DNA from: an uncultured Roseovarius sp.
Lineage (GTDB): Bacteria > Pseudomonadota > Alphaproteobacteria > Rhodobacterales > Rhodobacteraceae
NCBI GenBank assembly: GCA_947499555.1
Contig: CANMOU010000005.1
Coordinates: 80,924 to 144,923 of the forward strand
Direction of reading: 5' to 3'
Length of the DNA: 64,000 nt
Part shown: positions 10,545 to 31,690 of the stretch, piece after piece
Numbering within the stretch: the first letter of the stretch is position 1
How the letters are laid out: every line of letters starts with the position of its first letter
Made by a program: the position numbers and the translations under genes
The notes under the pieces: generated by a model
The model's input: the letters and a program-made list of their open reading frames with translations, nothing else
Told to the model about the DNA's origin: nothing
Databases searched by the model: none

Positions 10545-10801
10545 TGCGGTATCCTTTGATGGCGGCGATAATGCTTGTTGGGATCGCTTTGTGCTCAACC
10601 GCTCCCCAATCGAGCCCGGCAGGGGTGGCGCACGACGCCGTTTGTCGAAAACGGAGGTTGGCCACCTGCCGCCGGGTCCGACAGGAAGAAGTATAGGGTA
10701 CATGATACGATCAGACTTCGCATAACAGGTAGTGATCGTTTTTGTGGGTTCCCTGACCAAATGTTTCCGGTGCGATATGTGCTACATCGAACCACGTCAG
10801 A

Positions 10802-12771: not shown

Positions 12772-12775
12772 TTTC

Positions 12776-13978: not shown

Positions 13979-13979
13979 G

Positions 13980-15947
13980 ATGCCACAAGACGCCGTCGTT
14001 ACGCTTGAGGTCAGGGATGGTATCGGCTGGATTACCATCACCAATCCGCCAATCAATGCCCTATCCCGCGCAGTGCGGGCCGGTCTGGCGCAATGTGCGG
14101 CGGAGGTCGAGGCGCGGACAGATATCAAAGGTATCGTCCTGCGCGGGGCCGGGCGCTGTTTCGTTGCGGGCGCTGACATCACCGAACTGGGCAAGCCGCT
14201 GACCAAACCGTATTTACCCGACGTTCTCGCCTTGATTGCAGACAGTCGCGTGCCTTGGGTTGCAGCGCTTCATGGGTTCGTCTTGGGCGGCGGCTTGGAA
14301 CTGGCGCTGGCTTGCCATGGCCGGGTCGCCGCTTATGGCACGACGCTGGGATGCCCCGAGGTGAATTTAGGCATCATTCCCGGTGCCGGTGGCACAGTGC
14401 GTTTGCCCCGTTTGATACCGGTGGCTAAGGCGGTGCACATGATAGCTTCGGGCAAACCAATCGATGCGGATTCTGCTCTGTCGCTTGGGTTGATCGACAA
14501 GCTGGATCAAGACCCGGACACGGCCGCCGCCCATTTGCTCCAGAAATATCTGCACGGCGGGGCCCCGAACGATTTGTCCCTGCGTGATCCTGTTGATGTC
14601 CCGGTTGACGCATTCTGGGCGGAGCAGGACCAGGCATTGAAAAAACGCGCGCGTGGTCAGAATGCGCCGATTGAGGCGCTCCAGGCGGTTCGTGACGCCA
14701 CTGCGATGCCGGGCCGTGATGCCTTGCAGGTCGAACGCAAGCGGTTTCTGCGACTTGTTGCGAGTGACGAGGCCGCTGCCCTGCGGCATGTTTTCTTCGC
14801 CGAGCGCCACGCGGGGGCAAGCCTTAAAACCGCTAAAGCGGACCCTGCCGATTTGACGAAAGTGGGCGTGATTGGCGGCGGCACGATGGGCGTGGGCATT
14901 GCGGCGGCGCTTCTGTTGGCGGGCAGTCGGGTGATCCTGATCGAGCAATCGCAGGATCAGGCCGATGTCGCGCGAAGCCGTATCGAAGAGGTCCTGAACA
15001 ACAGCGCGAAGCGCGGCAAACTGGATGCGGCGGCGTTGGCAGCCGTGCAATCTGCCCTGACCGCAACGGATGACATGGATCGCCTGTCGGACACAAAACT
15101 GGTCATTGAGGCCGTGTTTGAGGATGCGCAGGTCAAAGCGGATGTGTTTGCCCGTTTGGATGCTGTTCTGCCAAGCGATGCAATCCTCGCCAGCAATACC
15201 TCTTATCTCGATGTCGATGCGCTGGCCGCCACCACGCGCGATCCTAGCCGTGTCCTGGGTCTGCATTTCTTCTCGCCCGCCTATGTCATGAAATTGCTTG
15301 AAGTGGTGCAAGGTCAGCATTGCTCGGACCGCGCCCTTGCCACCGCGCGGGCTCTGACGCGGCATCTGGGTAAGACGGCCATTGTTTCGGGCGTCTGCGA
15401 CGGGTTCATCGCCAATCGCATCATGGCGCAGTATCGCGCCGAGTGTGAACGGATGCTGGAGGACGGGGCCATGCCGTGGGAGGTGGACCGGGCCATGCGC
15501 AATTACGGCTATGCAATGGGCGTATTCGAGGTGCAGGATCTGGCCGGGCTGGACATCGCCTGGGCCATGCGCAAACGCCGGGCAGCAGACGCTGGTGGGC
15601 AGCCTGCGACAAAATCCATCGCTGACCGGCTCTGCGAGGCCGGGCGTTTTGGCCGCAAGACGGGGGCTGGATGGTATGCCTACGGGGATGGCAACCAGCA
15701 GATCGACCCCTGGGTGGAGAAGGCCATCAAGGACCATCGCAAGGATAAGGGCCAGAAAGCGCACAGCTTTACCGAGGCGGAGATCATGCAGCGCATCTTA
15801 TCCGCCATGCAGGATGAAGGCGCTAAGGTTCTCGAGGAAGGCATCGCCCAATCCGAAAGCGATATCGACGTGGCGATGATCCTTGGCCATGGGTTTCCGC
15901 GCCACAGGGGTGGCCCGATGTTTGCTCGCCAAAAGGTGATCTCGTGA
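13980..15947 (+). CDS. Enoyl-CoA hydratase / 3-hydroxyacyl-CoA dehydrogenase fusion (FadB/FadJ-like)
   Basis: 655 residues. The N-terminal crotonase domain (about 1-200) carries both catalytic glutamates, Glu107 (GGGLELAL) and Glu127 (CPEVNLG). The NAD-binding domain starts with GGGTMG at 299-304, and the dehydrogenase histidine is His429 in LHFFSPA. Two C-terminal dehydrogenase domains follow, with FIANRIM as marker. It hydrates enoyl-CoA and oxidises the 3-hydroxyacyl-CoA, feeding the upstream thiolase. The stop overlaps the GTG start of the aconitase X large subunit gene by four bases, which ties this beta-oxidation set to that dehydratase. Confidence 0.9.
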   Translation: MPQDAVVTLEVRDGIGWITITNPPINALSRAVRAGLAQCAAEVEARTDIKGIVLRGAGRCFVAGADITELGKPLTKPYLPDVLALIADSRVPWVAALHGFVLGGGLELALACHGRVAAYGTTLGCPEVNLGIIPGAGGTVRLPRLIPVAKAVHMIASGKPIDADSALSLGLIDKLDQDPDTAAAHLLQKYLHGGAPNDLSLRDPVDVPVDAFWAEQDQALKKRARGQNAPIEALQAVRDATAMPGRDALQVERKRFLRLVASDEAAALRHVFFAERHAGASLKTAKADPADLTKVGVIGGGTMGVGIAAALLLAGSRVILIEQSQDQADVARSRIEEVLNNSAKRGKLDAAALAAVQSALTATDDMDRLSDTKLVIEAVFEDAQVKADVFARLDAVLPSDAILASNTSYLDVDALAATTRDPSRVLGLHFFSPAYVMKLLEVVQGQHCSDRALATARALTRHLGKTAIVSGVCDGFIANRIMAQYRAECERMLEDGAMPWEVDRAMRNYGYAMGVFEVQDLAGLDIAWAMRKRRAADAGGQPATKSIADRLCEAGRFGRKTGAGWYAYGDGNQQIDPWVEKAIKDHRKDKGQKAHSFTEAEIMQRILSAMQDEGAKVLEEGIAQSESDIDVAMILGHGFPRHRGGPMFARQKVIS

Positions 15948-17215
15948 GCCTTCAGTTGACCCCGGATCAACAGGCCATGTGTGATGGCAAGCGCGGGCCA
16001 GTTCTGGAGTTTGCCATGGGGTTGCTGGTGGCCGCTGGTGAACTGCAAGGCGCGCAACGTCTGCAAAAGATCGACGCAGCCTATGTGAATACCACCTTTT
16101 CCAGCGCACCCAGCCATCTGGATTTCATGGAGTGGCTTGCAGGCGAAGGCGTGCAGGTGGCTGTTCCAACGCATACTAATATCGGCGGATGGGACGCCCG
16201 AAACCCTGACCTTCGGGTGGGCCCGAATATCGCACAGGCCAACACCGAGGCCCGCCGCCTGATCGAGTTGCACCGCGACGTCGGCTGCCACCTGTCGATG
16301 ACCTGCGCGACATATCAGCTTCCCTCCACGCCTAAGTTCGGCAGCCACGTCGCGTGTTCAGAGTCAAACGCGGTCTCTTACTTCAATTCCGTGGCCGGTG
16401 TCCGAACAGCCAAATACGGGGATTACCTCGATATGGCGGCGGGGCTGACGGGCCTTGTACCTGCGAAAGGGCGGCATCTGGACGCACCCCGTGCCGAAAC
16501 ACTTATCTTTGACATTCCGCACCTGCCCAAGCCGATCCGCCGGGATGATCTGACCTATCAGCTGATCGGCTATGTGATCGGGCGCAGGGCCGGAAAGGAC
16601 GTGCCGGTGATCACCGGTTTGAACCCTGATGCAACGCCGCGCAACCTTCGCTCGATCTGCGCCGCCGCCAATGCCAGCGGTGTGGTTGCGCTGTATCATG
16701 CGGTCGGGCTGACCCCGGAGGCTCCGGATATCCAGACGGCCACCCGTGGCAAAGACTGCCCGCGCGAGGTGATCACCGCGCAAGATCTGGCCAAGGCGCG
16801 CGAAGACCTGTCCGAGTTTGCAGGCGGCAAGATTGATGCGATCGCAATCGGGACACCGCACGCCTCGCTGGATGAAATGGAAGAGACGGTCAACTGGCTC
16901 CAGGACCGGTGCATTGCACCCGATGTCACTTTCTACATCCAGGCGAACCGCTTCGTCTTTGAGGTGGCACGGGAAAAGGGCTGGATCGCCACTCTTGAGC
17001 ACGCAGGCATCACGATTGTCACCGATACCTGCCTCTACTGGCGACCGGCCACGCGGGGGCTGAAAGGGCGGATCCTGACAACATCCGGCAAGTTTGCCTA
17101 TTACGCACCGGCCGAGCTTGATGCGTCCTGCCGCATCGCCACGTTGCGGGAATGTGTCGAAAGCGCTGTGCGTGGCGAGGTTTGGCGCGATCCCGACCTG
17201 GAGGGCCTTGGATGA
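15944..17215 (+). CDS. Aconitase X catalytic (large) subunit, DUF521
   Basis: 423 residues, starting at a GTG that overlaps the previous stop (GTGA). Aconitase X large-domain motifs are present: LTPDQQAMCDG at the N-terminus, MTCATY with Cys121, SESNAVSYFNSV at 139-150 and TDTC with Cys363; these cysteines are candidate iron-sulfur ligands. Characterised relatives dehydrate phosphomevalonate (archaea) or cis-3-hydroxy-L-proline (bacteria). Here the large and small parts are separate genes, as in the two-subunit type. Its coupling to beta-oxidation genes is unusual and leaves the substrate open; a hydroxyproline-type or other hydroxy acid is possible. Confidence 0.85.
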   Translation: MSLQLTPDQQAMCDGKRGPVLEFAMGLLVAAGELQGAQRLQKIDAAYVNTTFSSAPSHLDFMEWLAGEGVQVAVPTHTNIGGWDARNPDLRVGPNIAQANTEARRLIELHRDVGCHLSMTCATYQLPSTPKFGSHVACSESNAVSYFNSVAGVRTAKYGDYLDMAAGLTGLVPAKGRHLDAPRAETLIFDIPHLPKPIRRDDLTYQLIGYVIGRRAGKDVPVITGLNPDATPRNLRSICAAANASGVVALYHAVGLTPEAPDIQTATRGKDCPREVITAQDLAKAREDLSEFAGGKIDAIAIGTPHASLDEMEETVNWLQDRCIAPDVTFYIQANRFVFEVAREKGWIATLEHAGITIVTDTCLYWRPATRGLKGRILTTSGKFAYYAPAELDASCRIATLRECVESAVRGEVWRDPDLEGLG

Positions 17216-17637
17216 CGCATTTGCAGCCCATCCTGCCTGGCGAAATTGCCGCGCCTGTCCTTCAGCTTACCGAGCCGCTGAGTTTCTGGGGTGGGGTCGA
17301 TTATCTGACTGGCACCATCATCGACAAGGCCCATCCGCAGCACGGTGCCTGCATTGCCGGAACACTGTTGCTTGTGCCGATGGTGCGTGGCTCAGGCGGG
17401 ACGCCCGGCACGATTGCATCACTGATGAAGATCGGGCTTGGCCCCGTCGCGTTTGTGCTGGGCCAACCAGAGATCAATATACTTGCCGGCGTCATGCTGG
17501 GTCAAAGGCTTTACGATGTTGTTTGCCCTGTCTTTCTGGCCGATGGAGCGGAGTTCTCTGCGCATCCTACGGGCCAGGGCGGGATAATCCAGAGCGATGC
17601 GGACTGGACCCTGATATCCACCGCACCAAGCATATGA
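17212..17637 (+). CDS. Aconitase X swivel-domain (small) subunit, DUF126
   Basis: 141 residues from the ATG at 17212, which overlaps the large-subunit stop by four bases. The LPGEIAAPVLQLTEPLSFWGGVD start and the SGGTPG loop are typical of the mobile swivel domain that closes over the active site; the first serine of that loop is the likely catalytic base. It must work with the adjacent large subunit as a dehydratase. Last gene of the rightward operon; a hairpin overlaps its stop. Confidence 0.85.
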   Translation: MTHLQPILPGEIAAPVLQLTEPLSFWGGVDYLTGTIIDKAHPQHGACIAGTLLLVPMVRGSGGTPGTIASLMKIGLGPVAFVLGQPEINILAGVMLGQRLYDVVCPVFLADGAEFSAHPTGQGGIIQSDADWTLISTAPSI

Positions 17638-17652
17638 AGGAGCGGGCTCCTT
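17637..17652. terminator. Hairpin between convergent operons
   Basis: AAGGAGC and GCTCCTT form a perfect inverted repeat around GG right at the stop codon of the aconitase X small subunit and 25 bases from the end of the convergent binding-protein gene. No T-run follows. An alternative pairing uses GCGGGC with GCCCGC a few bases on. Confidence 0.35.
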
Positions 17653-17677
17653 ACAGCGCCCGCCCATGATACCTTGA

Positions 17678-19240
17678 TCAGGCGAACGACCAACGCTCCA
17701 TCCAGCGTTCGCCGTCCATGTCCCAATGCGACGAAAACTGCTCGCTCACGACAACATCGGGCGCAGTGGCAAAGACATAGTTCGCAAACATCGGCACGAT
17801 AACACCGCCATCCTGATTGAGAAGCGTCTGGCATTCCCAATACATCTCGCGGCGCTTGTTCTCGTCCAGCTCGGCACGGGCAGAGACCAGCAATTCGTTG
17901 AAACGGGCATTTTCCCAGAATGTGTCGTTCCAGTCCGCACCAGCAGAATAGGCCAAAGTCAGGGCCGCATCCTCGACAGGCCGTCCGCCCCAATAGACCG
18001 CGCAGAACGGATGCTTCAGCCAAACGTCGGACCAATAGCCATCATTGGGCGCACGCTTGACTGTCAGATCGATCCCGGCTGCCTTGGCCGAGTTCTGAAA
18101 CAGCGTCGCCGCATCCACGGCACCGGCAAACGCGGCATCCGCTGCCGCCAGTTCCACACTCAGCGTATCGACACCTGCTTGCTTCATGTGGAACTTGGCC
18201 TTGTCCGGATCATAGGGCGTCTGCGCCAGCTCCGAATTGTAAAAACGCTGGCCTTCGCCGATGGGATGGTCGTTTCCGACCGACCCATAGCCGAAGAGAA
18301 TCTTTTCGACCATTTCCTCACGGTTGATCGCGTGTTTGAGGGCAAGGCGGATATTGACGTCGGTGAAAGGGTCCTTGTTCGTATGCATCGCGAAGGTGTA
18401 GTGCTGTGTTCCCGCAACCGAATGGATGCCCAGATTTGGATCACGCGCCATCAGGCCGACCGTTTTCAGATCGAGACGGTCAATCGCGTGTACATCGCCA
18501 GAAATCAACGCGGTGGTCCGCGCGTTCAGATCGACGACAGACAGCATTTCGATCCGGTCGAAATAGCCCCTATCGCTGTTCCAGTCATTTTCAAACCGTT
18601 CCAGAGTGGCCGAGACCCCGGGATTGAATTCAACGATCTTGTAGGGTCCACAGCTGACACCCGATTGCCAGTCGACGGTGTCGCCGTCAGCAGGAAGGAT
18701 GGCCAGGTGATAGTCCGTAAAGGTGAATGGAAAATCTGCGCTGCCAGAGTTGAGGGTAAACACGACTGTGTTGCCATCCGCGGTGATGTCAGTGATTGAA
18801 TCCACCAGCGGTTTTGCGGCAGACGTAGAATCGTCTCCCATATGGAACCGGATCGACGCGATCACGTCTTCTGGGGTGACCGTTTTGCCGTTGTGGAATG
18901 TGACACCGTCGCGGATTTTGAACCGCCACACTTTTGCGTCTGCGCTGGCCTCCCAGCTTTCGGCAACTTCCGGCTGCAGGTTGCCATCGGTGCCGACACC
19001 TGACAGGAGTCCGCTAAACCCATAGGACATCGAGATCGTGAAACCGTTGTCGTAGGTGCCGGGGTTCAGCGTGTCAGTCGTGTTGCCATGGGCCTTGGCC
19101 ACCCGGAAGGTACCGCCTTTTTTCAGCTCTGCACGTGCCGCAACCGGGCTGAACCCGGCCGCAAGTGCCGCACTTCCCGCGATGCCGCCCAGAACCGTCC
19201 GCCGGTTCCAATGCGTTCTGCTATTAGTCGATCTATCCAT
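17678..19240 (-). CDS. Peptide/nickel-type ABC transporter substrate-binding protein (Tat-exported), paralog 1
   Basis: 520 residues from the ATG at 19240, preceded by AAAGGGAGAG. A Tat-type signal (NRRTVLGG, hydrophobic stretch, AARA) spans about residues 12-38. The rest is a family 5 solute-binding protein (DppA/OppA type) with WRFKIRDGVTFHNGKTVTPEDV and a long C-terminal lobe. It is a clear paralog of the protein encoded at 19796-21385, sharing SADFPF/NADFPY, GNDHPIG and NDGYWSDVW segments. No permease or ATPase gene is nearby, so the partner importer is elsewhere. Gene order suggests a substrate linked to the sulfatase/PLP enzyme encoded upstream. Confidence 0.88.
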   Translation of the reverse strand: MDRSTNSRTHWNRRTVLGGIAGSAALAAGFSPVAARAELKKGGTFRVAKAHGNTTDTLNPGTYDNGFTISMSYGFSGLLSGVGTDGNLQPEVAESWEASADAKVWRFKIRDGVTFHNGKTVTPEDVIASIRFHMGDDSTSAAKPLVDSITDITADGNTVVFTLNSGSADFPFTFTDYHLAILPADGDTVDWQSGVSCGPYKIVEFNPGVSATLERFENDWNSDRGYFDRIEMLSVVDLNARTTALISGDVHAIDRLDLKTVGLMARDPNLGIHSVAGTQHYTFAMHTNKDPFTDVNIRLALKHAINREEMVEKILFGYGSVGNDHPIGEGQRFYNSELAQTPYDPDKAKFHMKQAGVDTLSVELAAADAAFAGAVDAATLFQNSAKAAGIDLTVKRAPNDGYWSDVWLKHPFCAVYWGGRPVEDAALTLAYSAGADWNDTFWENARFNELLVSARAELDENKRREMYWECQTLLNQDGGVIVPMFANYVFATAPDVVVSEQFSSHWDMDGERWMERWSFA

Positions 19241-19795
19241 TGATTTCTCTCCCTTTGAAACTTGGTGTTCAACAGGCGCAGGATCATACGTCGTGTTGGA
19301 ACGCGTCCGCGTTTGACGGCGAACATGGTCGGGCAAAGAATAGACTTTTGCCTATCCCAAGTATCCTGAGGAATGGTTTTGCGGGTCTGATTGAGGCTCA
19401 GTTTGATGAAATGTTCGGCTATGACGTTCTTTTGATCAAATTGCAAAGTGTTGCGCCCAGACGACCACGCAAGCCTGAAACGCCGCCTGAGTGACTTTGA
19501 GAAGCCGTTCAGGTTTGATGCCTTGTTGATTTGGTTCTTAGCAATGCACGAGTGTGGCTTCAATTTCACGGTATTTGGGGGCCGCTTGCAAATGTTCTCC
19601 TTTATTCCCGTTGGCTCAGCGGTGATTGCTGGTCTTCACAAGAGTTAGAAAACCAGCGTCTTATCAATACAGAAAGAGGAGGTTTATAGAGCCTTTGCCC
19701 GCAATTCACGCCGACCTTCCATCATACAAGGCTGCAAAAAGGGACTTCCCGCACCGGTCAAGGCGTGGAAAGCAAGGTCATGACCCGGGAAATGG
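19241..19795. other. 555-base spacer between two paralogous binding-protein genes
   Basis: Short open frames occur on both strands here but none has a convincing start, ribosome-binding site or recognisable product. The composition is more AT-rich than in the flanking genes. It may carry a promoter for the downstream binding-protein gene or debris from an old insertion; I see no clear terminator, repeat or transposase relic. Confidence 0.4.
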
Positions 19796-21385
19796 TCAGA
19801 CCATCCACCAACGTTCCAGGATACGTCGGCCATCAAACCCGCGGACCCAGCTGAGATCGCCATGCGCGATGTTCTCGTTGCGGGCGTGGACCTCGTTGGC
19901 GAACATCGGGACGATATTGCCGCCCTCGTCGCGCAGGATGATTTGGATGTCGCGGTACATTTCCGCGCGCAACACTTCGTCCAGTTCAGCCCGCGCGGTT
20001 TCCAGCAGCTCGTTGAAGCGTGGATGATCCCACTGGGTGTCGTTCCACGCAGCACCCGCGGCAAAAGCCGTTGACAGCATCGTATCCTCGATTGGATAGC
20101 CACCCCAATAGCTGGCTGACCACGGTTTCTTCATCCAGACGTCGGACCAATAGCCATCGTTGGGTTCACGCACGACGTTGATGTTAATACCCGCCGCCTT
20201 GGCCGAGGCCTGAAAGAGGACAGCGGCATCCAGCGCGCCACTATAGGCCGCATCCGAGGCACTGAGATCGATGCTGATGTCGCCCAGGCCGGATTTCTCC
20301 ATATGATGTTTGGCCTTGTCGGGATCATAGGCCAGTTGTTCGATATCCGCGTGATAGCGATAGGACGGCCCGATCGGATGGTCATTGCCCACCACACCGT
20401 GACCAAACAGGATCTTGTCCACGATCTCCTGCCGGTTGATACCGTATTTCAGCGCCTTACGCAGGTGCAGATTGTCGAAGGGCGCCGTTTTGGTGGCCAT
20501 CGGGAACGTATAGTGCAGCGGCCCCGCCCCTTCTTCGATCACGATGCCGGGGGTGCGCTCCATCAGCGCCAGCGTTTTCAGCTCGACCCGGTCGATGCAA
20601 TCCACCTCGCCGGTGATCAGCGCGTTCTGGCGCGCGGCCGGATCGGTGATCGAGTGAACCTCGATACTGTCGGCATGGGCCGCGCCCTCTTTCCAGTAAT
20701 TCGGATTGCGCTCGAATTCATAGCGCCGTCCGGGCTGTTCGCTTTTGAGGATATAGCCGCCGGACCCGCCCGCTTTCCAGTCGATGCTGCCATCCTTGGC
20801 GGGATAGACGGTGAAGAACGCTTCGTTGAAATTATAGGGGAAATCCGCGTTTCCTGCCGCGAGGGTAAAGACAACCGTGTTGCCGTCCGCCGTGATGTCC
20901 GTCACCGCCTCCATGACGGGCTTGCCGGCCGAGGTCGAATCTTCACCCCGGTGAAAGTTGATCGAGGCGATCACATCCTCGGCACTCATGGTCTTGCCAT
21001 TGTGGAACTCCACCCCGTCGCGCAGTTTGAAGGTCCAGACCTTGGCATCGGGCGAGGAGCCCCATTCCGTCGCCAGCGACCCCACCAGGTTGCCCTGCGC
21101 ATCAAGCTCGGTCAGCGTGTTGGCCACGCCGTAGGCCACCACATATTGCAGGCCGTTGGTCAGCGTCGCCGGGTTGAGCGTGTCGGATGTGGCTCCGTGA
21201 CCCATGGCCAGCCGCATATGCCCACCCTTGCTGGGCGTCGCGGCGTGGGCCTTGCCGAACAAACCGGTCCCAACACTCAGCGCCATGCCCAGAGCAGTCG
21301 TGCGCCCCAGAAACTCGCGCCGCGACATGCGGCCTTTTTCAACCTGGCCGATCAGCCATTTTGCATGTTTTTCTTCAGAATGCAT
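19796..21385 (-). CDS. Peptide/nickel-type ABC transporter substrate-binding protein (Tat-exported), paralog 2
   Basis: 529 residues from the ATG at 21385, with GGGAGGG upstream. A consensus Tat motif SRREFLGR is at about 21-28, followed by a hydrophobic segment ending AHA. Family 5 solute-binding protein with WTFKLRDGVEFHNGKTMSAEDV. It and the downstream paralog probably arose by duplication and may bind two related solutes. It starts 139 bases after the stop of the sulfatase/PLP fusion on the same strand, so the three may be one transcription unit. Confidence 0.89.
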   Translation of the reverse strand: MHSEEKHAKWLIGQVEKGRMSRREFLGRTTALGMALSVGTGLFGKAHAATPSKGGHMRLAMGHGATSDTLNPATLTNGLQYVVAYGVANTLTELDAQGNLVGSLATEWGSSPDAKVWTFKLRDGVEFHNGKTMSAEDVIASINFHRGEDSTSAGKPVMEAVTDITADGNTVVFTLAAGNADFPYNFNEAFFTVYPAKDGSIDWKAGGSGGYILKSEQPGRRYEFERNPNYWKEGAAHADSIEVHSITDPAARQNALITGEVDCIDRVELKTLALMERTPGIVIEEGAGPLHYTFPMATKTAPFDNLHLRKALKYGINRQEIVDKILFGHGVVGNDHPIGPSYRYHADIEQLAYDPDKAKHHMEKSGLGDISIDLSASDAAYSGALDAAVLFQASAKAAGININVVREPNDGYWSDVWMKKPWSASYWGGYPIEDTMLSTAFAAGAAWNDTQWDHPRFNELLETARAELDEVLRAEMYRDIQIILRDEGGNIVPMFANEVHARNENIAHGDLSWVRGFDGRRILERWWMV

Positions 21386-21524
21386 TTTTCATCCCTCCCG
21401 ATGATTTTGGTGTTGCTTTGATCATGAGGTCGCGCCGTGACATTCCTCGGCCAGCGCCGCGTTTCGATCGTTTCTTGAGTTCAACGTTCATTAGATTCTC
21501 CCTCTTATTTCTTTTCATTTCCCG

Positions 21525-24395
21525 TTACTTGAACGCGCTGACCTTGTGGCTTGGACGATCCTTAAGGTGCGGCGATGGGGCCGGGTTCCGCACCTCTTGC
21601 GACAGTCTTTCAATCGTGCCTTCCAACGCATTCAGAAAATCAGTGACTTCGGACCGGGTGTTGTAATGCGCCAGCCCAACCCGCACGACACCCTGCTCCG
21701 GGTCGAGGCCCAGATGACGGGTCAGTTCATAGGCATAGTTATGCCCCCAATGGCAAAACACCCCCTGGTTAGAAAGGGCTTTTGCGATCTCACGCGCGCC
21801 AAGGATTTTATGGGTAAACGAGAAGGTTGGAACGCGCGGGGCGCCGGGTGTGTTTGGCCCTGGCCCGACAAGTGCAACGCCGGGCAGGGCTGTCAGTCCT
21901 GTCATGAGCGTTTCAGCCAGGGCGTCTTCGTAAAGCCCGGCTTGTTCGAACCCGGCCGCAAGTTTGGCGCGCGTGCTGCCCTGTGTGCCACAGAGCGTGC
22001 CAACGGACACAAGATAGTCAATTGTCGCAGAGAGACCCGCCATCAGCTCCAACTGCTGCGTGCCCATGAGGAACCTGGTCGGCAGGTCGTCCGCGGCGCA
22101 GCGCACCTTGTAGGCCTTTGCGCTTTGCAGCACCTCGCGCTTGCCCCAAAGAAGACCAAGATGCGGGCCAAAGAATTTATAGGGCGAACAGGCCAGAAAA
22201 TCGCAACCCAGATCCTGCACATCAATAAGCCCATGTGGCGCGAACTGAACCGCATCGACGTAAACGAGGACATCAGCCTCATGCGCGACGGCGGTCAGCG
22301 CCTTGATGTCATTGATGGCCCCGCTCAGGTTGCTGGCATGGTTCAGCGCCACAAGACGGGTCCTGTCGCTGAGGATGGCCCGCAGATTGTCCGAGGTCAG
22401 ACGATAGGTTTCGGGGTCGGGATCGAGCCAGACGACCCTGGCCCCAGTGTCCTGCGCCATGGCAAGCCATGGCGCGACATTTGCCTCGTGATCCACGCGG
22501 GACACAATGATTTCATCCCCCTCACTGATGCGGGGTTTGAGGGCATGCATCATCTGGAAGGTCAGCGATGTCATGTTCGGCCCGATCAGAATCTCGTTCG
22601 GATCATCGGTGCCAAGGAACATCGCGAGCTTTTCGTAGAGCGTGTCTGTCATGGCATCGACAGCTATGGATGTGCTGTTGAACACGCCTGAATTGCTGTT
22701 GGTTCTCAGGTAATAGTTTGTGACAGCGTCCATTACGTCGGCGGGCACCTGTGTTCCGGCAGGATTGTCGAGATACACCCTGCCACGACCGCCATCGGTG
22801 GTTTTCAGCGATGGAAACTGGTCGCGTATCTGGTGGACCGGGAACCCGATGTCCTCGGCCTGCGAGGCTGTGTTTTTGAGGAATTTTCCCGGACTGGCCG
22901 CAAGCAGGGCCGACGGCGTTCTAAGCTGTTCGCAGTTTTCATAAAGCGCGTCGAGTTCGATGAAAATCTCAGCATCGTCCCGCTGGTTGATCTTGCCCTG
23001 CCCGCCCATGGCCTCGACGATTGCGCCTTGTTTGCGCAGGGCTCTGTCATTGACCGCGTCGGGGTCGATCAGGGCGCGCATCGCCGCGTCGGCGCGCTTG
23101 CGTTTATCGGCAAACTTCGGATCGCTGGCCAGATCATTGTCTTCATCGGGATCGTTCAACAGATCGAACAACTGCGGTTCATACCCGGGATAGACAATGT
23201 ATTTCCACCGTTTGGACACCAGCATGAACATGCCAGTAGACACGCCGCCATCGTGGTATTCGCTGAGGATGGACCGGTCCTGGCTGTCCTCTTGGACCAT
23301 CTTCAGGAGGTCCTGACCGGGCAAGGCGCTCTCGGCCTCCGACAGCTCGCCACCGCAGCCGTTCACGACCGTTGGATACATGTCGACCAGGGATACCGGT
23401 GTCTCGATCACCTTGCCCTTGGGAATATCAGCGCCTTTCAGGATCAAAGGAATGGCGACCGCGTCTTCGTACATCAGCATCTTGGTCCAGACGCCGTGAT
23501 TGCCCAGCATTTCGCCATGGTCACTTGTGTAGGCCACGCGCGTATTTTCCGACAAGCCGGTTTCTTCGAGCGTTGTCAGCAGGTTGCCCACCAGATAATC
23601 GGTAAAGGACACCAACCCGTAATAGGCCCGGCGCGCCATGGTCGTCAGGTCATCGGTGAAGTAGTCGTTGTAATTGTAGAAGGTCCGGTATTCCTGCAAC
23701 AAGGGATGGGTTGGCTCTTCGTCCGGGCGGTGGGCACCGGGGATATCGACACCATCGTAGAGGTCATAGAATTCGCGCGGGCAGATCAACGGATAGTGCG
23801 GGCTGATCAGCGACACGAACATCACCCAGGGCTTGTCCGGCGTGCCGGTCTGCTTGCGCATCCAGGCGCAGGCCGTATCCGTGACCACGCGGTCATATTT
23901 GGTATAGTCGGTTTCGCCAATGCCGACATGCTCGACAAAGCCCAGGGTCTCGGTGTTCTTTTCCGGAATGCTCAGCGGATTGCGCAGCAGGCCACGGACC
24001 CAGCCCATGCCGTTCTGATTGTGAATGGGCAGGAATTCGCGGCTGAACCCGTTATCCTGTTCTGCCGTCTTGAAGCCCAGTTTCCCGAACGACACAACGT
24101 CATGCCCGGCCTCGCGCAGGTTATGCGCCCAGGTCCGCCGGGTTCCGTCATAGGCTTCGACGCTGCTGAAACATTCGTTCTGGTGCACATAGCTGCCCGT
24201 GGCCAGACAGGCGCGCGCCGAGACACAGGTCGGCGACGGGGAATAGGCGCGCGAAAACCGGGTGCCTTGCGCCGCTAGGCTATCGATGAACGGTGTCTTG
24301 ATGACCGGATCGCCGGCACACCCGCTGTAGCGGGCGCTGTGTTCGTCTGAGATAATGAACAGAAGGTTTTGCGGTTTCACGGGCTTACCTGACAT
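21525..24395 (-). CDS. Sulfatase fused to cysteine-desulfurase-like (class V aminotransferase) domain
   Basis: One uninterrupted 956-residue frame from the ATG at 24395 (a TTG at 24431 is an alternative). Residues about 8-490 are a type I sulfatase: IISDEHSARY near the start, the active-site segment Cys57-Val-Ser59-Ala-Arg61 and SDHGEMLGNHGVWTK at about 291-305. Residues about 515-940 are a fold-type I PLP enzyme of the cysteine desulfurase-like family: VYLDNPAGTQVP, VDHEANVAPW, YVDAVQFAPHG and the PLP lysine Lys740 in SPYKFFGPHLG. A sulfatase hydrolyses a sulfate ester; the PLP half may then act on the amino acid released. The modified cysteine sits in CVSAR in place of the usual C-x-P/A-x-R. 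No signal peptide, so cytoplasmic. Confidence 0.88.
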   Translation of the reverse strand: MSGKPVKPQNLLFIISDEHSARYSGCAGDPVIKTPFIDSLAAQGTRFSRAYSPSPTCVSARACLATGSYVHQNECFSSVEAYDGTRRTWAHNLREAGHDVVSFGKLGFKTAEQDNGFSREFLPIHNQNGMGWVRGLLRNPLSIPEKNTETLGFVEHVGIGETDYTKYDRVVTDTACAWMRKQTGTPDKPWVMFVSLISPHYPLICPREFYDLYDGVDIPGAHRPDEEPTHPLLQEYRTFYNYNDYFTDDLTTMARRAYYGLVSFTDYLVGNLLTTLEETGLSENTRVAYTSDHGEMLGNHGVWTKMLMYEDAVAIPLILKGADIPKGKVIETPVSLVDMYPTVVNGCGGELSEAESALPGQDLLKMVQEDSQDRSILSEYHDGGVSTGMFMLVSKRWKYIVYPGYEPQLFDLLNDPDEDNDLASDPKFADKRKRADAAMRALIDPDAVNDRALRKQGAIVEAMGGQGKINQRDDAEIFIELDALYENCEQLRTPSALLAASPGKFLKNTASQAEDIGFPVHQIRDQFPSLKTTDGGRGRVYLDNPAGTQVPADVMDAVTNYYLRTNSNSGVFNSTSIAVDAMTDTLYEKLAMFLGTDDPNEILIGPNMTSLTFQMMHALKPRISEGDEIIVSRVDHEANVAPWLAMAQDTGARVVWLDPDPETYRLTSDNLRAILSDRTRLVALNHASNLSGAINDIKALTAVAHEADVLVYVDAVQFAPHGLIDVQDLGCDFLACSPYKFFGPHLGLLWGKREVLQSAKAYKVRCAADDLPTRFLMGTQQLELMAGLSATIDYLVSVGTLCGTQGSTRAKLAAGFEQAGLYEDALAETLMTGLTALPGVALVGPGPNTPGAPRVPTFSFTHKILGAREIAKALSNQGVFCHWGHNYAYELTRHLGLDPEQGVVRVGLAHYNTRSEVTDFLNALEGTIERLSQEVRNPAPSPHLKDRPSHKVSAFK

Positions 24396-24540
24396 CTGGG
24401 GCACGGTTTGAGGTTGAAGAAACGTCGTCAACCGGATGGAGGTCTACGCCGGGGCCGCTTGGATAGCCGGGCGGCGGTTCTAGGGGAAAGGATGCGCCCT
24501 GGGGCCGGTTACATCAACTTGACATGTCGTTTTGGCAGGC

Positions 24541-24555
24541 ATTACGATTTGTAAT
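24541..24555. promoter_or_regulatory. Candidate LysR operator (ATTAC-N5-GTAAT)
   Basis: A perfect inverted repeat, ATTAC and GTAAT around GATTT, matches the T-N11-A rule for LysR-family binding sites. It overlaps the proposed start codon of the LysR gene and faces the divergent sulfatase gene, the classic position for autorepression plus control of the target operon. Confidence 0.45.
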
Positions 24556-25495
24556 GGAAAACCGTGACGTCATAAGGGCTATTTTCGGGGCATTGCCGCT
24601 GTTCGAGGCGGCGGCACGCCTGCGAAGTTTCACAGGCGCCAGCCGTGAGTTTGGCCTGACACAGCCTGCTGTCAGTCGGCGCATCATTGAAATGGAGCGG
24701 ATCCTCGGGGCCAGGCTTTTCCTGCGGCAAAACAACACTCTGACGCTGACCGCCAAGGGCAAGACCCTGTTTCAGGCCATGACGTCAGGCTATGATCCCA
24801 TGGTCAGCGCGATCCAGGATATCTCGGCAACCCGGCAAAAGAAGACGCTGAGGATCGCATGCGGGTTCAGCTTTGCCAGCATGTGGCTACAGCCCCGGTT
24901 CGAGCTTTTGAGGGAGTGTCTGAAGAGCCAGGAAATCCAGTTGGTTGCAACCGAAACCCTGGACGAGCTTGATCCGAACGACATCGACATGCGCATCCTG
25001 TGGCGCCCGGATGCCTGGCCGGGGCGGACATTGGTGCCGATCCTGCCCGAAGATATCTGCCTGGTCTGTAGCCCGGGTTTTGCCATCGCAAATGGCATCG
25101 ACACAGGCCATGACCTGTCATTTGAGCAGCTTCAGACCTTGCCGCTGATTTCGTATGATCATGGCGCAGAGGAGTATTGTGACTGGCCGTCATGGTTTTC
25201 CCGGCTGTCGGATCAGGCCCCGCTCACATCGCCGGGCTATACCTACAGCAGCTTCATGTACGCCATTCAGGCCGCGCTGATGGGCAAGGGGATCGCCATC
25301 GGGTTCATGCCGATGATTGCAGAGTATATCGAAAACGGCGACCTCCAGTGCATCGGTGACGTTCTGCATTATAGGGATGAAGCACTTTTTTTTGAGTATG
25401 TCCCCGACGCGCTATCTCCTGCGATAACTACGAAGCTGCTGAACTGGTTCAATGACCAGCGGACGGATACAGAGAAGACATACACCCGCCCTTAG
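24554..25495 (+). CDS. LysR-family transcriptional regulator
   Basis: 313 residues from the ATG at 24554 (an ATG at 24524 would add ten). The helix-turn-helix ALPLFEAAARLRSFTGASR ... TQPAVSRRI is followed by a periplasmic-binding-like effector domain (TLRIACGFSFASMW). It is divergent from the sulfatase/PLP fusion gene and is the obvious candidate to regulate that operon in response to its substrate. Neither start has a good SD. Confidence 0.83.
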   Translation: MENRDVIRAIFGALPLFEAAARLRSFTGASREFGLTQPAVSRRIIEMERILGARLFLRQNNTLTLTAKGKTLFQAMTSGYDPMVSAIQDISATRQKKTLRIACGFSFASMWLQPRFELLRECLKSQEIQLVATETLDELDPNDIDMRILWRPDAWPGRTLVPILPEDICLVCSPGFAIANGIDTGHDLSFEQLQTLPLISYDHGAEEYCDWPSWFSRLSDQAPLTSPGYTYSSFMYAIQAALMGKGIAIGFMPMIAEYIENGDLQCIGDVLHYRDEALFFEYVPDALSPAITTKLLNWFNDQRTDTEKTYTRP

Positions 25496-25665
25496 ATTCG
25501 GTAGGTCGCGCCAACGTTGTCGACGCGTCCAAATGAAGACAGAAACTGGCGCAGGAGATTGGGTTAGGAACATAATACATAATCGTAACTACGGGCTTCA
25601 AGACTATGTGTAAATTGATGCTTGTAGTCGAAACTTTCGAGGAAATTCCGGGAATTACTTGCAGA

Positions 25666-26995: not shown

Positions 26996-27184
26996 CCACT
27001 CACCTTGTCGCAACACGAGATTCTCGCTATGAGTGTATCTAAACGCGTCCCTTCTGCTTTGGCACGAAGGAGACGATCAGGGCGAAAACAGATTTGATAA
27101 GCCCCTGAAAAGTATAAAAACAATTCTGCGCAGTCTTATATCACTCGAAAGGTGTTTCGCGAAAAACAAAACGAAGGTCCGAAG

Positions 27185-28819
27185 ATGGTGCACATCGACG
27201 AGAATTTCGTGGCCAGACCGCTCCGCGGCGACCTTGATTTCAAGGAGCTCTTCCAGGAAGCAATTGCCGCTCGTGCAGGCCTTTCTGGAGTGAGCTCAGA
27301 TGAAACAAGCTCGGGATGGACACCAAGCACGTTAGCAGATGCGATGTTAGAGGCAGACCCACAAGGCCGCGGAGTGGATGTGCGAACCGTGCAGAATTGG
27401 TTTCAAGATAATGACAGGGGGATCAGTTCCGAGAATATTGTTTGCCTCGCGCGTGTATTTGGTATGGGCGATCCTGATGCGATTGCAGCATGGAGAACGG
27501 AACTGAGAGCGGCGAACAAACGCCTTGCATCGAAACGCAGAGTGCGCCGCAAAAGCAACCTAAAATCGGCTGTGACAGAGAACACGGCTGGTTCAGATTT
27601 ATCATGCGAAGACGCAGAGTCGCAAAGTAAACGAAGCGGCTTGCCAGAGCTGTCCGAAAGAATGTTCACAAGCACAGAAGGTTTCGGCATAGCCGTTGTC
27701 GTTTGGGCAGGCTTTTTTCTTCTTTGCTTGATGTCTTTTGTCTTTGAAAACCACGATGTGACATATGCAGCGCGACCAGATTTGAACAAACAGGTTGGTT
27801 TTTTCTGGTCCCTCAGCTGGCCGGTCGAGTGCCTTTTGTTGTATCCCACATTGTTTTTGCTTGTTGCGCACCTCGTCTCTTTCTGGAAGCGGGAGTGCAG
27901 CGCCACGACACAATCTGAGGACCAATGCCGCGCTTGGCGCGGACTTATCTACAGCTTGCGCTTACCACTCTGGATCGTGGCGTTTGTGGCATTCGGCTTG
28001 GTGTTTGCAGTCCAGTGGAGCGGCGTTTACCTTCTCGGTCTTACGCAAAGAGATGCGCCAGATCTTATCGATTGGATACTGGTCGCCCAGCTTCGGCCTG
28101 ACATTGTCTCGTTTTGGGAAGCTCTTTTGGTTTCCTTAGTTGCATTCCTTTATTCTGGTCTGATTTATTGGTTCTATTTTGTAGGGCTGCTTTTGTTGTT
28201 TGCCGTCTGCGAGGACTACCATAGGAAAGCTACATCATCTGAACCGTTTCACGATGTCAGTTTCTTTGAGTTCGCTGGTGAGAAGCTTCAGAGGGGCATC
28301 TTCCGCTGTACCGTGATTGGAATCTTTGCGGCCACTGCAATCCAGCTGAATGCAATCTATCTGAAGTCAGACGGCGCAACGAGTTTGGGCTGGCTGGTTG
28401 GCGATTTAGCCGCCGGGCTGGGCTGGCATTCCACTGAGTGGGCATTTCTCGGCCAATCTTCGGTATCATCTCTCACGAGTTCGATTTTGCTGTTATTACA
28501 CTTGGCGTTGTTCGGTGTGTGCACAACCAAAGTTCGTTCCGCCATGAGAGCGTCCCACTCACAAACCTTTGGGTCCGAAAGCTCGCTGGGGGAGGAGGGG
28601 GGCGAACGGAGGCGTTTCGTTCACGATCCGTTGCCTAGGCAACTTTGTGTGTTGGTCCTCCTTTGTCTGAATTTTGTCCTGCTCGGGCAGTTTGTAGGCT
28701 TCACAGTCTTACTATCCGCATCACTCCTTGTCGCCATTGCAGCGATCTGCTGGAATGAAAAAGGCTCTGAGTTGCGCGGTAATATGGAGGCGCAAGTGTT
28801 TATACGGCGCGATCCATGA
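27185..28819 (+). CDS. Multi-pass membrane protein with cytoplasmic regulator-like N-terminus (possibly RcgA family)
   Basis: 544 residues from the ATG at 27185, with GAAGGT seven bases upstream. Residues about 1-130 are soluble and read like a helix-turn-helix sensing module (STLADAMLEADPQGRGVDVRTVQNWFQDNDRGISSENIVCLARVFG), ending in a basic run. From about residue 165 there are roughly eight to ten hydrophobic segments, with a soluble loop around 470-490. I tentatively link it to proteins named RcgA in Roseobacter plasmids, from memory only. Transport or membrane signalling is possible. Composition is more AT-rich than the catabolic blocks. The stop overlaps the start of the DMT exporter gene by four bases. 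Confidence 0.65.
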   Translation: MVHIDENFVARPLRGDLDFKELFQEAIAARAGLSGVSSDETSSGWTPSTLADAMLEADPQGRGVDVRTVQNWFQDNDRGISSENIVCLARVFGMGDPDAIAAWRTELRAANKRLASKRRVRRKSNLKSAVTENTAGSDLSCEDAESQSKRSGLPELSERMFTSTEGFGIAVVVWAGFFLLCLMSFVFENHDVTYAARPDLNKQVGFFWSLSWPVECLLLYPTLFLLVAHLVSFWKRECSATTQSEDQCRAWRGLIYSLRLPLWIVAFVAFGLVFAVQWSGVYLLGLTQRDAPDLIDWILVAQLRPDIVSFWEALLVSLVAFLYSGLIYWFYFVGLLLLFAVCEDYHRKATSSEPFHDVSFFEFAGEKLQRGIFRCTVIGIFAATAIQLNAIYLKSDGATSLGWLVGDLAAGLGWHSTEWAFLGQSSVSSLTSSILLLLHLALFGVCTTKVRSAMRASHSQTFGSESSLGEEGGERRRFVHDPLPRQLCVLVLLCLNFVLLGQFVGFTVLLSASLLVAIAAICWNEKGSELRGNMEAQVFIRRDP

Positions 28820-29691
28820 GCAACCAGAAAGGTATCGCATTCACCATACTCTCCATGGCTGCGTTCACGCTCGAAGACATGTTCATAAAGATTCTGTCGG
28901 TGCAGTTGCCCATTGGTCAAATGCTCTGCATGTTTGGGCTCGGAACGGCTTCACTATTCGCGATCATAATGTGGGTCAGCAGAACTCGATTTGATAATCC
29001 GGGTGCTTGGGGCAAAGTCCCTCTTTTGCGGACACTTTTCGAGGCTGGCGCAGCATTAACATTTTATCTGGCTCTTTCGAAAAACGATCTGACTCTTGTT
29101 GCGGCCATCTATCAGGCGGTGCCACTGGTGATCGTCCTCGGGGCATTTGTCTTTCTGCGAGAGCGCGTCGGATGGCGCAGATGGCTTGCCGTTCTGGTGG
29201 GATTGGTTGGGGTCATGTTGATCACGCGCCCTGGCTTTGCTGAATTCGATCCGAATTCACTTTGGGCGGTTTTATCGGCGCTTTTTGTCGCCGGCAGGGA
29301 TTTGGTTACGCGTAGAATTGAGGCAACCTTGTCGTCGACTTTGATATCTTTTCAGAGCTTTGTAATCTTGATTCCAATTGGTTTACTTTGGCATTTCGTG
29401 ACGGGTGAGGTGTTAGAGCCGGTCTCCGGTTTCCAATTGGCTTTGACGCTCGGTGGAATAATCTTTGGAGCTATCGGCTACTACTGCATCGTTCTCGGCA
29501 TGCGCTTGGGAGAAGCTTCCGTGGTCGCCCCGTTCCGATACAGCCGTATCCTCTTCGCAATTCTGGTAGGCGCCATCGTCTTTGGTGAACGCGTGGATGC
29601 AATTACACTACTTGGTATCGGTCTAATCGTTTCGGCGGGACTATATGCGTTCGAACGGAAAGCACGGAAAGGATTCAGGGCGCAGATTTGA
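28816..29691 (+). CDS. DMT-superfamily EamA transporter
   Basis: 291 residues with about ten transmembrane helices arranged as two EamA repeats; the second contains PFRYSRILFAILVGAIVFGER, a hallmark of the family. Likely an inner-membrane exporter of a small metabolite. The ATG overlaps the stop of the preceding membrane protein gene (ATGA), so both are made together; the pair may export and sense the same compound, which is an inference from coupling alone. Confidence 0.87.
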   Translation: MSNQKGIAFTILSMAAFTLEDMFIKILSVQLPIGQMLCMFGLGTASLFAIIMWVSRTRFDNPGAWGKVPLLRTLFEAGAALTFYLALSKNDLTLVAAIYQAVPLVIVLGAFVFLRERVGWRRWLAVLVGLVGVMLITRPGFAEFDPNSLWAVLSALFVAGRDLVTRRIEATLSSTLISFQSFVILIPIGLLWHFVTGEVLEPVSGFQLALTLGGIIFGAIGYYCIVLGMRLGEASVVAPFRYSRILFAILVGAIVFGERVDAITLLGIGLIVSAGLYAFERKARKGFRAQI

Positions 29692-29786
29692 TTAGCCAAG
29701 ATTTACGGAACAGAGTTCGAATATCGAATGCAATCTAATGCAGGCAAAGCCGTTTCTGGGGATACGACCCACATTAATAACATAAT

Positions 29787-29807
29787 AGTTCTTATGGGAT
29801 AAGAACT
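29787..29807. repeat. Perfect AT-rich inverted repeat, 9-base arms
   Basis: AGTTCTTAT and ATAAGAACT flank GGG in the gap between the convergent DMT exporter gene and the small exported-protein gene. It can form a stable hairpin, but lacks a T-run, so it might be a terminator, a protein-binding site or a partition-type element. Confidence 0.5.
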
Positions 29808-29904
29808 TACCATGAACATTATCACCGTCTGAGTGTCAATCCACTAAACTCAAACTGCCCTTCTTTCTTAAGAATACCTGCAAGCTCGAACTGCGCGGCC
29901 AGCT

Positions 29905-30192
29905 TCACTCGCCAACAATCTGCAGAAACCGTCCGTAGTCTTCGCTCACCTCCCGCGCCTCTTCAAAGGCCCGCACTCGTTCCCCATCTAGACAGCGGAA
30001 GTATGCCTGGATGTCTTGAATATAGAGATCAAAGTCAGACCGAATCAGGTCCGCATACGCGCGAATGTCATTGGCATCGGTCGGCACGAATGGCCGTTCC
30101 GGCGCGTAGCAAGTCTGTGCCATCGCATCCTTCGGAAGCCAGAGAGACAATAATACAGCGATGTAGCAGATACAGGTGATCTGTTTGCGCAT
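29905..30192 (-). CDS. Small exported protein of the type IV secretion island
   Basis: 95 residues from the ATG at 30192. Signal peptide MRKQITCICYIAVLLSLWL with cleavage near AMAQ, then a helical domain with two cysteines (QTCYAPERPF, and YFRCLDGERVRAFEEAREV). It lies just outside and divergent from the VirB operon. Similar small proteins seem to accompany VirB loci in this group; the role is unknown. The SD is weak. Confidence 0.6.
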   Translation of the reverse strand: MRKQITCICYIAVLLSLWLPKDAMAQTCYAPERPFVPTDANDIRAYADLIRSDFDLYIQDIQAYFRCLDGERVRAFEEAREVSEDYGRFLQIVGE

Positions 30193-30363
30193 GGGATTAG
30201 GCCCTCGATGCTTGAGGAAAGCGGCTCGCCATGCGTAATACTGACGTCGAGCGAAAGCTTGCGCAAGACAAAACCGCATCTTGCACACAAAACAGTATGA
30301 TTGTAATGATGGTGCATCGAAACCAATGGCTCCGGTGTGCCCAAAACCAAGAGAGGGCGCGCC

Positions 30364-30726
30364 GTGGCGATAGATCTACAAAAAGAAGCGCCGAATGTGG
30401 TTACAGAAGCAGGATTCAAGAAGCTCGTTGAATCCGGATACAGCGTCGAAGTCGTGTGCAAGCAGGATGCCTATCGGAAGAACTCCGTGTGGCATGGCAT
30501 CTGGCTGCTGCGTGCCGTCAACGAAGAAGGTGCCGAGAAAGAACTCGTCACGGCCCGAGCGCGTCCCGATGGAGACTTCATCCAGCTCAGGGTCTTCAAA
30601 ACCGTCACAGGCCTCACCTCCTTCCTCATTGATCTCGGTTTCTCGGTGGTGGCCTTCCCGGTCTACGAAGGACAGCGCTGGACATATACTTTGGCAGATA
30701 CGCCCGACGACGACAGCGACGGCTAG
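30364..30726 (+). CDS. Conserved hypothetical protein at head of virB operon
   Basis: 120 residues from a GTG at 30364 with GAGAGGG upstream (a GTG at 30337 is possible). Soluble alpha/beta protein: [51 protein letters not shown]. No signal peptide. It is the first gene of the VirB operon and its 3' end overlaps the likely start region of the transglycosylase gene. Function unknown; a cytoplasmic accessory or regulator of the operon is an inference from position. Confidence 0.6.
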
Positions 30727-31399
30727 CGCCGCGTTTCTCCTCCTCGCGGCTCACGCCGCGACAGCCCAGATGATCTTCACGATGGGAGGCGACGGCTCGC
30801 TTTCCCCTTCCCGCTCCCAAGACACCTTCGCACGCAATTACAATGAAGGGATCGGTCAGGGCGATCCCGATGCCCCTCTGTACATCTTTGGCAACGATGG
30901 CGCGGCTGAGGCGGATTCTGATGATGGTACATTCCGCGTCGCGGCCATTGTTCCTGGTGTTGCGGTGCCGCGCCCGGACATCCTCGCGGCAATAGACGAA
31001 ACCGCTCTCCGATATGCAAGCCACCCCGGCCTGCGCGCATCGGACCTGACCATCACCGAATGGCGGCTTCTGTTCCGCGCAAACATTGAAATCGAAAGCG
31101 CTTACAACCCCAATGCCCGGTCGCGGGTCGGCGCTATCGGCCTGGGCCAGCTCATGCCGGGCACCGCCCAGATACTAGGCGTCAATCCCTTCGACTGGCG
31201 CGCCAATCTCGACGGTTCCGCACGCTATCTGGCGACACAGCTTGAGACCTTCCGGGACGCCCGTTTGGCACTAGCTGCTTACAACGCCGGGCCCGAGGCT
31301 GTCCGCGCGCATGATGGCATTCCCCCCTATCGAGAAACGCAAAACCACGTTCAGCGGGTGCTGGCCGTGTTCAACAGGCTGGAAGGAGAAACCCCATGA
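30629..31399 (+). CDS. virB1: VirB1-like lytic transglycosylase
   Basis: A signal peptide core ([16 protein letters not shown]) is followed by an acidic linker and an SLT domain with catalytic glutamate near residue 156 (EIESAYNP), then [13 protein letters not shown], and [13 protein letters not shown]. It opens peptidoglycan for assembly of the secretion channel. The start is uncertain: no ATG or GTG lies close before the signal sequence. I use the nearest in-frame legal codon, a TTG at 30629, inside the previous gene; an ATA at 30698 would give a better signal length, and ATG at 30770 would lose the signal. The stop overlaps the virB2 start (ATGA). Confidence 0.75.
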
Positions 31400-31680: not shown

Positions 31681-31690
31681 GGAGGTTGGC

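Follow-up and report, generated by a model that had tools for sequence, protein, structure and literature searches.

A sulfatase and a pyridoxal phosphate enzyme fused in one frame of an uncultured Roseovarius hint at two-step use of sulfated amino acids

Why would a sulfatase and a pyridoxal phosphate (PLP) enzyme be made as one protein? A gene of an uncultured Roseovarius sp. raises this question. It lies in a stretch of 64,000 nucleotides (the window; assembly GCA_947499555.1, contig CANMOU010000005.1, positions 80,924 to 144,923), on the minus strand at 21525..24395. The frame runs uninterrupted from 24395 to 21525 over 956 codons and a stop, encoding 956 amino acids (968 codons and 968 amino acids if the TTG at 24431 is the start). 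Two domain models score over their cut-offs: PF00884 (Sulfatase) on residues 9-344 with 150.8 bits (gathering cut-off 25, E 6.9e-44) and PF00266 (Aminotran_5) on residues 540-919 with 219.1 bits (cut-off 21.5, E 1.2e-64). A preliminary description had proposed a natural single-frame fusion of 956 codons between a sulfatase and a fold-type I PLP enzyme, and both parts of that proposal are confirmed: no stop interrupts the frame between the halves, and the PLP homology of the C-terminal half is clear. The fusion is real as sequence, a single frame with two recognisable enzyme domains. To judge from sequence, each half belongs to a known superfamily and the combination of domains is new, with a putative mechanism. 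The fusion suggests a two-step use of sulfated amino acids.

Could two adjacent genes have been joined by an assembly or sequencing error? The sulfatase half (22968..24371, minus strand, residues 9-476) follows the same course as 37 stand-alone sulfatases of its clade (duplicates left out) until about residue 476. The linker (22851..22967, minus strand, residues 477-515) opens with an insertion of 15 residues (477-491) that none of the 37 has. Next, R492-T493-P494 aligns to the xTP tail motif of the stand-alone proteins (TP in 36 of 37), and about 20 residues, whose counterpart is absent from most sulfatase tails, lead into the PLP half at F518 (21606..22844, minus strand, residues 518-930). 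The only ATG, GTG or TTG in codons 441-530 is the ATG at 463. Codons 464-530 contain no in-frame start, so that the PLP half lacks one where stand-alone PLP genes begin. Codon bias is steady, with a third-position G+C of 0.76 in the sulfatase core, 0.65 in the linker (471-516) and 0.68 in the PLP half. A search for repeats of at least 18 bases within 21500-24450 found none, and the junction is internal to a contig of 144,923 bases, of which the window is the last 64,000. The presence of the fusion in one genome only would fit an error, but these features make one highly improbable.

An AlphaFold2 model (38 aligned rows) has a mean predicted local distance difference test (pLDDT) score of 88.0, with most of both domains above 80. 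In this model the linker of about 40 residues is mostly disordered (pLDDT below 50 for 487-513) and, with a predicted template modelling score of 0.57, the mutual placement of the two domains is undefined. We saw no N-terminal signal by eye, so the protein is probably cytoplasmic. Foldseek matched one half of the model to choline sulfatases and the other to SufS-type desulfurases and Rv3778c.

Does the fusion occur elsewhere? We found no second example beyond the source genome among 85 genomes of the genus (E 1e-90), 394 of the family (E 1e-90), 283 of the order (E 1e-140), or 385 of the class and 398 of the phylum (both E 1e-115). All of these searches used the whole protein as query. The sets overlap and all include the source genome; the family and class-type searches scored the best two or three candidates per genome, and the genus search up to ten. 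Among 72,556 plasmid records, 40 match at 1e-60 and none covers 80% of the query in one place, and a megablast of plasmids with the DNA of 17600-25600 gave no match. A pattern search of viral contigs gave no match. A BFVD fold search was uninformative, returning sulfatase, NifS-like and other PLP folds, each in single proteins. At least 595 stretches of genome contigs encode a relative; among the best 80, only locus L150 touches both halves (residues 5-924). We rejected it as a second fusion because it consists of two separate genes with a 150-amino-acid frame between them, and its sulfatase is of another, unrelated family (52 bits, with a lipoprotein-like start by eye). Another candidate, L018/L052 (open frame 884), also consists of separate genes. 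In full-text literature searches, judged by titles and abstract openings, no paper on the sulfatase and PLP domain pair appeared. The fusion is therefore an orphan, and no searched collection yielded the domain pair a second time.

Isolation of this kind, with the exact pair adjacent nowhere else, is what a chance in-frame fusion in one lineage would leave, the two enzymes having no shared substrate. We consider this very unlikely. Both halves are full length, and the PLP half is the only member in its genome of the TIGR01976 family over the cut-off. Relatives of the SBP_bac_5 or LysR genes that accompany the fusion also recur near each half separately, at a few loci.

What could the sulfatase half do? 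We compared it with the 37 clade members and three choline-sulfatase-type references, mapping the SmCS residue numbers given in excerpts of PMC5870055 onto the fusion by alignment. The nucleophile, the metal ligands, the lysine and the His-Lys acid pair are kept: D17, C57, R61, K105, H200, D292, H293 and K305 correspond to SmCS Asp14, Cys54, Arg58, Lys102, His201, Asp296, His297 and Lys309. At the position of SmCS Gln15 the fusion and all 37 relatives have Glu. The position of Asn75 is S78, and we rejected its loss as a sign of decay because 20 of the 37 relatives also have Ser there. Loss of the C-terminal TP motif was rejected as well, since the motif aligns after the 15-residue insertion. 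A choline sulfatase identity was rejected on three grounds. The fusion scores 247.4 bits on the choline sulfatase model TIGR03417, below its cut-off of 433.45. The choline-binding Glu386 (column 383) is Gly in the fusion and Glu in none of the 37 relatives, as against all three references. Finally, a true betC (897.4 bits on TIGR03417) lies elsewhere in the same genome.

The PLP half belongs to TIGR01976 ('cysteine desulfurase-like protein'), with 474.1 bits over a cut-off of 352.35. This family is a hypothetical equivalog with no assigned reaction, and a full-text literature search returned no paper naming it and a match for VC1184 only. In an alignment of 42 of 80 rows, kept at below 85% identity (the fusion and 41 others), K740, D714, H636, T609 and R905 are present in all 41 other rows; K740 is the PLP lysine that had been recognised earlier in SPYKFFGPHLG. 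A leave-one-out comparison found three mild changes among 52 columns. The catalytic cysteine of desulfurases falls at Y887 (N886-Y887), where 40 of the other rows have Tyr and one has Phe. The earlier label 'cysteine-desulfurase-like' therefore holds for the fold and fails for the function. We rejected a cysteine desulfurase identity on this residue and on the scores for SufS (220.2 bits of the 475.1 required) and CsdA (159 of 493.6). A true desulfurase or selenocysteine lyase handing on sulfur next to a sulfatase would agree with the database name and with SufS-type structures as the closest folds listed; the Tyr and the same scores make it exceedingly improbable.

Among solved structures, Fgm3 (PDB 9x4u) is closest in sequence to the PLP half (E 2e-58 with the whole protein as query), and UstD is also among the PDB matches by name. 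According to excerpts of PMC10967133, Fgm3 cuts the Cβ-Cγ bond of 4(R)-hydroxy-L-Arg, releasing L-Ala and another product, a reaction termed retro-aldol in the available text of PMC10367076. Fgm3 KVYGPH aligns with KFFGPH of the fusion. The two share K740, H636 and the lack of a desulfurase Cys, a weak likeness because the first two are common to further class V families as well.

Which genes accompany the stand-alone relatives of the PLP half? We collected 89 loci, 45 in a Mesorhizobium-like set and 44 others, and counted neighbours in the 44; L068 and L162 are the same place, as are L076 and L139, so each is counted twice among the loci. The counts are single-linkage clusters of non-overlapping frames, a filter that dropped the PLP gene from 9 of the 89 loci. 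A substrate-binding protein (SBP) and a permease are each found in 25 of the 44 and an ATPase in 24. A regulator cluster whose representative has a GerE domain is found in 22, Inositol_P in 18, Aminotran_1_2 in 10, OCD in 6 and an aldehyde dehydrogenase in 5. The SBP, Inositol_P, OCD, Aminotran_1_2 and dehydrogenase clusters are named by one representative each, and the permease and ATPase by annotation. The representative SBP has 180.4 bits on a lysine/arginine/ornithine-binding model (cut-off 256.35 not reached), and the phosphatase has 252.1 on HisN (below 275.15). The aminotransferase has 545.5 bits on PRK07324 (over the cut-off of 476), 328.5 on GntC (below 415) and 225.3 on VioD (also below). 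At L068 the importer SBP scores 165.3 bits on the same lysine/arginine/ornithine model (again under 256.35), and the locus also contains an OCD-family gene. In Rhizobium CIAT894, genes for an amidohydrolase, an agmatinase and a creatininase lie near the PLP gene, and related gene sets are seen on four named plasmids.

In L126, L049, L047, L076 and others, a stand-alone TIGR01976-type gene is often accompanied by an amino-acid ATP-binding cassette (ABC) importer, a HisN-like phosphatase, an OCD gene, a GntC/VioD-like aminotransferase or an aldehyde dehydrogenase. Such stand-alone operons are possible catabolic clusters for hydroxyarginine or cyclic guanidines. A separate observation concerns Eremiobacterota, where a beta-lactamase-fold gene adjoins the PLP gene (L161, 7282-8691; the cluster is also in L127 and L166).

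Taken together, we tentatively favour, at somewhat less than an even chance, a reading in which a single cytoplasmic protein first desulfates and then cleaves a γ-hydroxy amino acid, perhaps a guanidino compound, that enters the cell as its sulfate ester. The SBPs encoded beside the fusion would bind the ester, and a permease encoded elsewhere would import it. The sulfatase half would strip sulfate from the alkyl sulfate ester and leave a free γ-hydroxyl on the α-amino acid. The PLP half, acting like Fgm3, would use the freed hydroxyl for a retro-aldol cleavage between Cβ and Cγ, yielding alanine and an aldehyde. Sulfate would block the PLP cleavage until removed, which would be a reason for fusing the two activities. 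The substrate may carry a guanidino group, an idea drawn from two weak, independent hints: the stand-alone PLP operons, with importers of arginine-type likeness in many and a GntC/VioD-like aminotransferase in some, and an amidinotransferase-like gene beside a sister sulfatase. In its full form, the reading is of a bifunctional enzyme that takes the sulfate off an O-sulfated γ-hydroxy (possibly guanidino) amino acid and immediately breaks the carbon chain through PLP-dependent retro-aldol chemistry; we hold this to be unlikely. The sulfated amino-acid substrate of the preliminary description thus survives as a broad idea and is still the best reading; its pathway link rests on the fusion and on indirect context. 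A literature search for sulfated hydroxyarginine, judged by titles, returned nothing relevant.

Both halves might instead act on one sulfated substrate with a different PLP chemistry, namely elimination, transamination or decarboxylation. A family with no assigned reaction, named in no paper that the full-text search returned, leaves room for this. However, Fgm3 is the nearest solved sequence and UstD is also among the matches, and a chemistry of hydroxy amino acids agrees with the GntC/VioD-like and aldehyde dehydrogenase genes found in some related operons. We regard such other chemistry as unlikely.

Several observations count against the desulfation-and-cleavage reading, and the strongest come from the sulfatase half, which has lost a histidine and has an altered signature. 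SmCS His104 of the GKxH motif, which contacts the nucleophile according to excerpts of PMC5870055, is G107 in the fusion and His in all 37 relatives and all three references. The signature C57-V-S59-A-R61 (CVSAR) departs from the rule (C/S)-X-(P/A)-X-R given in the available part of PMC6189696; the Pro is kept in 36 of the 37 relatives, and Ser is found in one (L212, same genus as the fusion). The earlier claim that both halves keep their main catalytic residues is not borne out at G107 and S59, nor for the PLP half, which has no desulfurase Cys. A leave-one-out comparison showed that the fusion alters five columns that are invariant in the other 37 (W76F, A79V, I103F, H107G and D455K), the most of any clade member (the next have four and three); a further gap at the tail TP is spurious, since the query ended at residue 470, and is not among the five. 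With several altered residues in or near motifs, a changed pocket appears as likely as decay. A formylglycine-generating enzyme (FGE, PF03781) was not found in the source genome, in a search whose control was positive in 4 of 14 genomes. That genome has 13 radical S-adenosylmethionine matches, among which a sulfatase maturase (anSME) might lie. It also encodes at least three sulfatase-type genes, including the true betC, without an FGE of PF03781.

These residues are the basis of the main rival, in which the sulfatase half is impaired or re-purposed (for another ester, as a scaffold or for oligomerisation) and the PLP half acts on an amino acid that is not necessarily sulfated. The nucleophile-contacting His is lost in the fusion alone, the signature departs from the rule (though L212 does so too), the 15-residue insertion falls in the tail region, a tail said in excerpts of PMC5870055 to be essential in SmCS, and no FGE was found. 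On the other hand, the half retains its Cys, Arg and Lys, the His-Lys pair and the metal ligands, third-position G+C is still high over the half (0.76), five altered invariant columns are few for a decaying domain, and the tail TP is retained. Moreover, the unmodified choline sulfatase of E. meliloti is a slow multiple-turnover enzyme according to the available text of PMC6189696, so the missing FGE would be neither fatal nor decisive. The activity of the sulfatase half is, as far as its residues tell, uncertain because of CVSAR in place of CxPxR and the absent His. We judge an impaired or re-purposed half rather unlikely, though the most serious competitor of desulfation followed by cleavage.

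The remaining points that weaken the desulfation-and-cleavage reading concern the PLP half and the context. The proposed base of Fgm3, Tyr Y225 (excerpts of PMC10367076), could not be placed in the fusion, where F742 or Y739 could correspond. Foldseek with the PLP half found SufS-type desulfurases and Rv3778c, and Fgm3 is not among the 50 matches listed. In the PLP tree the fusion, L088 (Luminiphilus) and L068 (Halocynthiibacter) lie on long branches outside the main stand-alone clade, so that a function read from stand-alone operons is indirect; the branches of the fusion are long in the trees of both halves (0.91 and 1.18), which makes its place in them unsure. The arginine-type and GntC-type scores of the PLP neighbours are below cut-off. 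The SBPs of the fusion locus belong to family 5 instead of family 3, and no gene for an importer permease adjoins them. Finally, a search for the pair as adjacent separate genes, as the preliminary description had advised, gave nothing for the exact pair: no TIGR01976 gene over the cut-off lies within 5 kilobases (kb) of the 37 stand-alone clade sulfatases, and no clade sulfatase occurs in the 89 PLP loci, where one locus (L150) has the unrelated sulfatase. This second check was redone on unfiltered frames, in which the PLP gene was found at all 89 loci. As the exact pair was adjacent at none of these loci, it is the fusion itself, with indirect context, that argues for a linked pathway.

That context includes a few partial likenesses. 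Among the 37 stand-alone sulfatases, two have an SBP_bac_5 gene of more than 100 bits within 5 kb (L045 and L213), and one has a class V PLP gene within that distance (L052), 66 bases away. A relative of the amidinotransferases HsvA, AGAT and SxtG lies 407 bases upstream of the L052 sulfatase. L052 is among the three sisters of the sulfatase of the fusion in the tree (support 91/70, below the 95/80 mark), and the sulfatase is present in one of the two genomes of its genus that were covered. On the PLP side, one of the 89 loci (L110) encodes an SBP_bac_5 protein 66% identical to the second SBP of the fusion locus, divergent from the PLP homologue with an unassigned 235-amino-acid frame between them.

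The genes around the fusion agree with the earlier account of a linked locus, with a divergent LysR and two SBP genes. Both SBPs are present, as that account had it, and belong to SBP_bac_5; nothing found makes peptides their ligand, as its 'peptide-type' label implied. SBP1 (19796..21385, minus strand, 529 amino acids) begins with MSRREFLG, which we take to be a twin-arginine translocation (Tat)-like motif. A frameshift at its start was rejected because this motif is in frame. A 38-codon frame with an SRRDLM motif (21375-21491, minus strand) follows a GA-rich stretch and overlaps the SBP1 start out of frame. SBP2 (17678..19336, minus strand, 552 amino acids in the listed frame) is 50% identical to SBP1, and its true start is probably nearer its Tat-like motif NRRTVLGG. 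The divergent LysR regulator (24524..25495, plus strand) has TIGR03418, the choline sulfate utilisation regulator, as its best NCBIfam model (191.8 bits; cut-off 324.8 not reached), and is 38% identical to the LysR of L068.

Elsewhere in the source genome, L198 (6170-12464) has the order betI, betC, a 216-amino-acid frame of no family and betA, with a divergent SBP_bac_5 gene whose product is 64% identical to SBP2. Among other loci, L201 contains a similar SBP and sulfatase pair, and L204 (230-9256) combines an SBP_bac_5 72% identical to SBP2 with a hutF gene and with a distant TIGR01976-like gene, which stays below the cut-off at 176.7 bits. Beside the fusion locus, the plus-strand region 27152-41950 of the window carries a VirB/Trb-type cluster for secretion or conjugation and an RcgA-like gene, whose 279.4 bits fall short of the cut-off of 325. 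One run of genes convergent with SBP2 (11944-17637, plus strand) encodes an enoyl-CoA hydratase, a thiolase, a FadB-like protein, AcnX and an AcnX swivel-domain protein. A methyltransferase of the MTTB family lies between a flavin mononucleotide/pyridine-nucleotide oxidoreductase and a LysR gene (7016-11770, minus strand), and a GCV_T/FAO_M gene is found at 40-1467 (plus strand).

If the O-sulfated γ-hydroxy amino acid reading is true, sulfated hydroxy amino acids would form an unrecognised marine pool with a catabolic route of its own, and a sulfated metabolite could be sought in marine samples. Sulfate-ester cleavage would be tied to amino-acid C-C cleavage. The stand-alone operons would then handle unsulfated or, given the HisN-like phosphatase, phosphorylated versions, and their amino-acid importers and GntC/VioD-like partners would give a functional lead for bacterial TIGR01976. 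If the sulfatase half is dead, the fusion would still be a case of a sulfatase turned accessory domain.

How does the fusion compare with known systems? Its sulfatase half has the fold of BetC/SmCS (TIGR03417, PDB 6fny), with the same nucleophile Cys, metal ligands and His-Lys acid pair, but differs in lacking the choline-binding Glu386 and His104 and in scoring below the TIGR03417 cut-off. Its PLP half resembles Fgm3 of Fusarium graminearum in the PLP Lys, the stacking His and the missing desulfurase Cys, whereas Fgm3 is stand-alone, fungal and biosynthetic and reads KVYGPH for KFFGPH. The half is over the TIGR01976 cut-off, and unlike the fusion the members of that family seen here have no fused sulfatase. 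Two gene arrangements come closest to the locus as a whole. L213, from the same genus, has a divergent LysR, a clade sulfatase first and an SBP_bac_5 gene last, as in the window, but a second sulfatase replaces the PLP half and SBP1, and the genome carries its PLP gene in another operon (L217). In the L052 operon (G072), a sister sulfatase is directly followed by a class V PLP gene, as in the fusion. It differs in having two genes with an amidinotransferase-like gene ahead of them, and in a PLP enzyme that reaches 117.7 bits on TIGR01976, whose cut-off is 352.35, and 141.8 on SufS.

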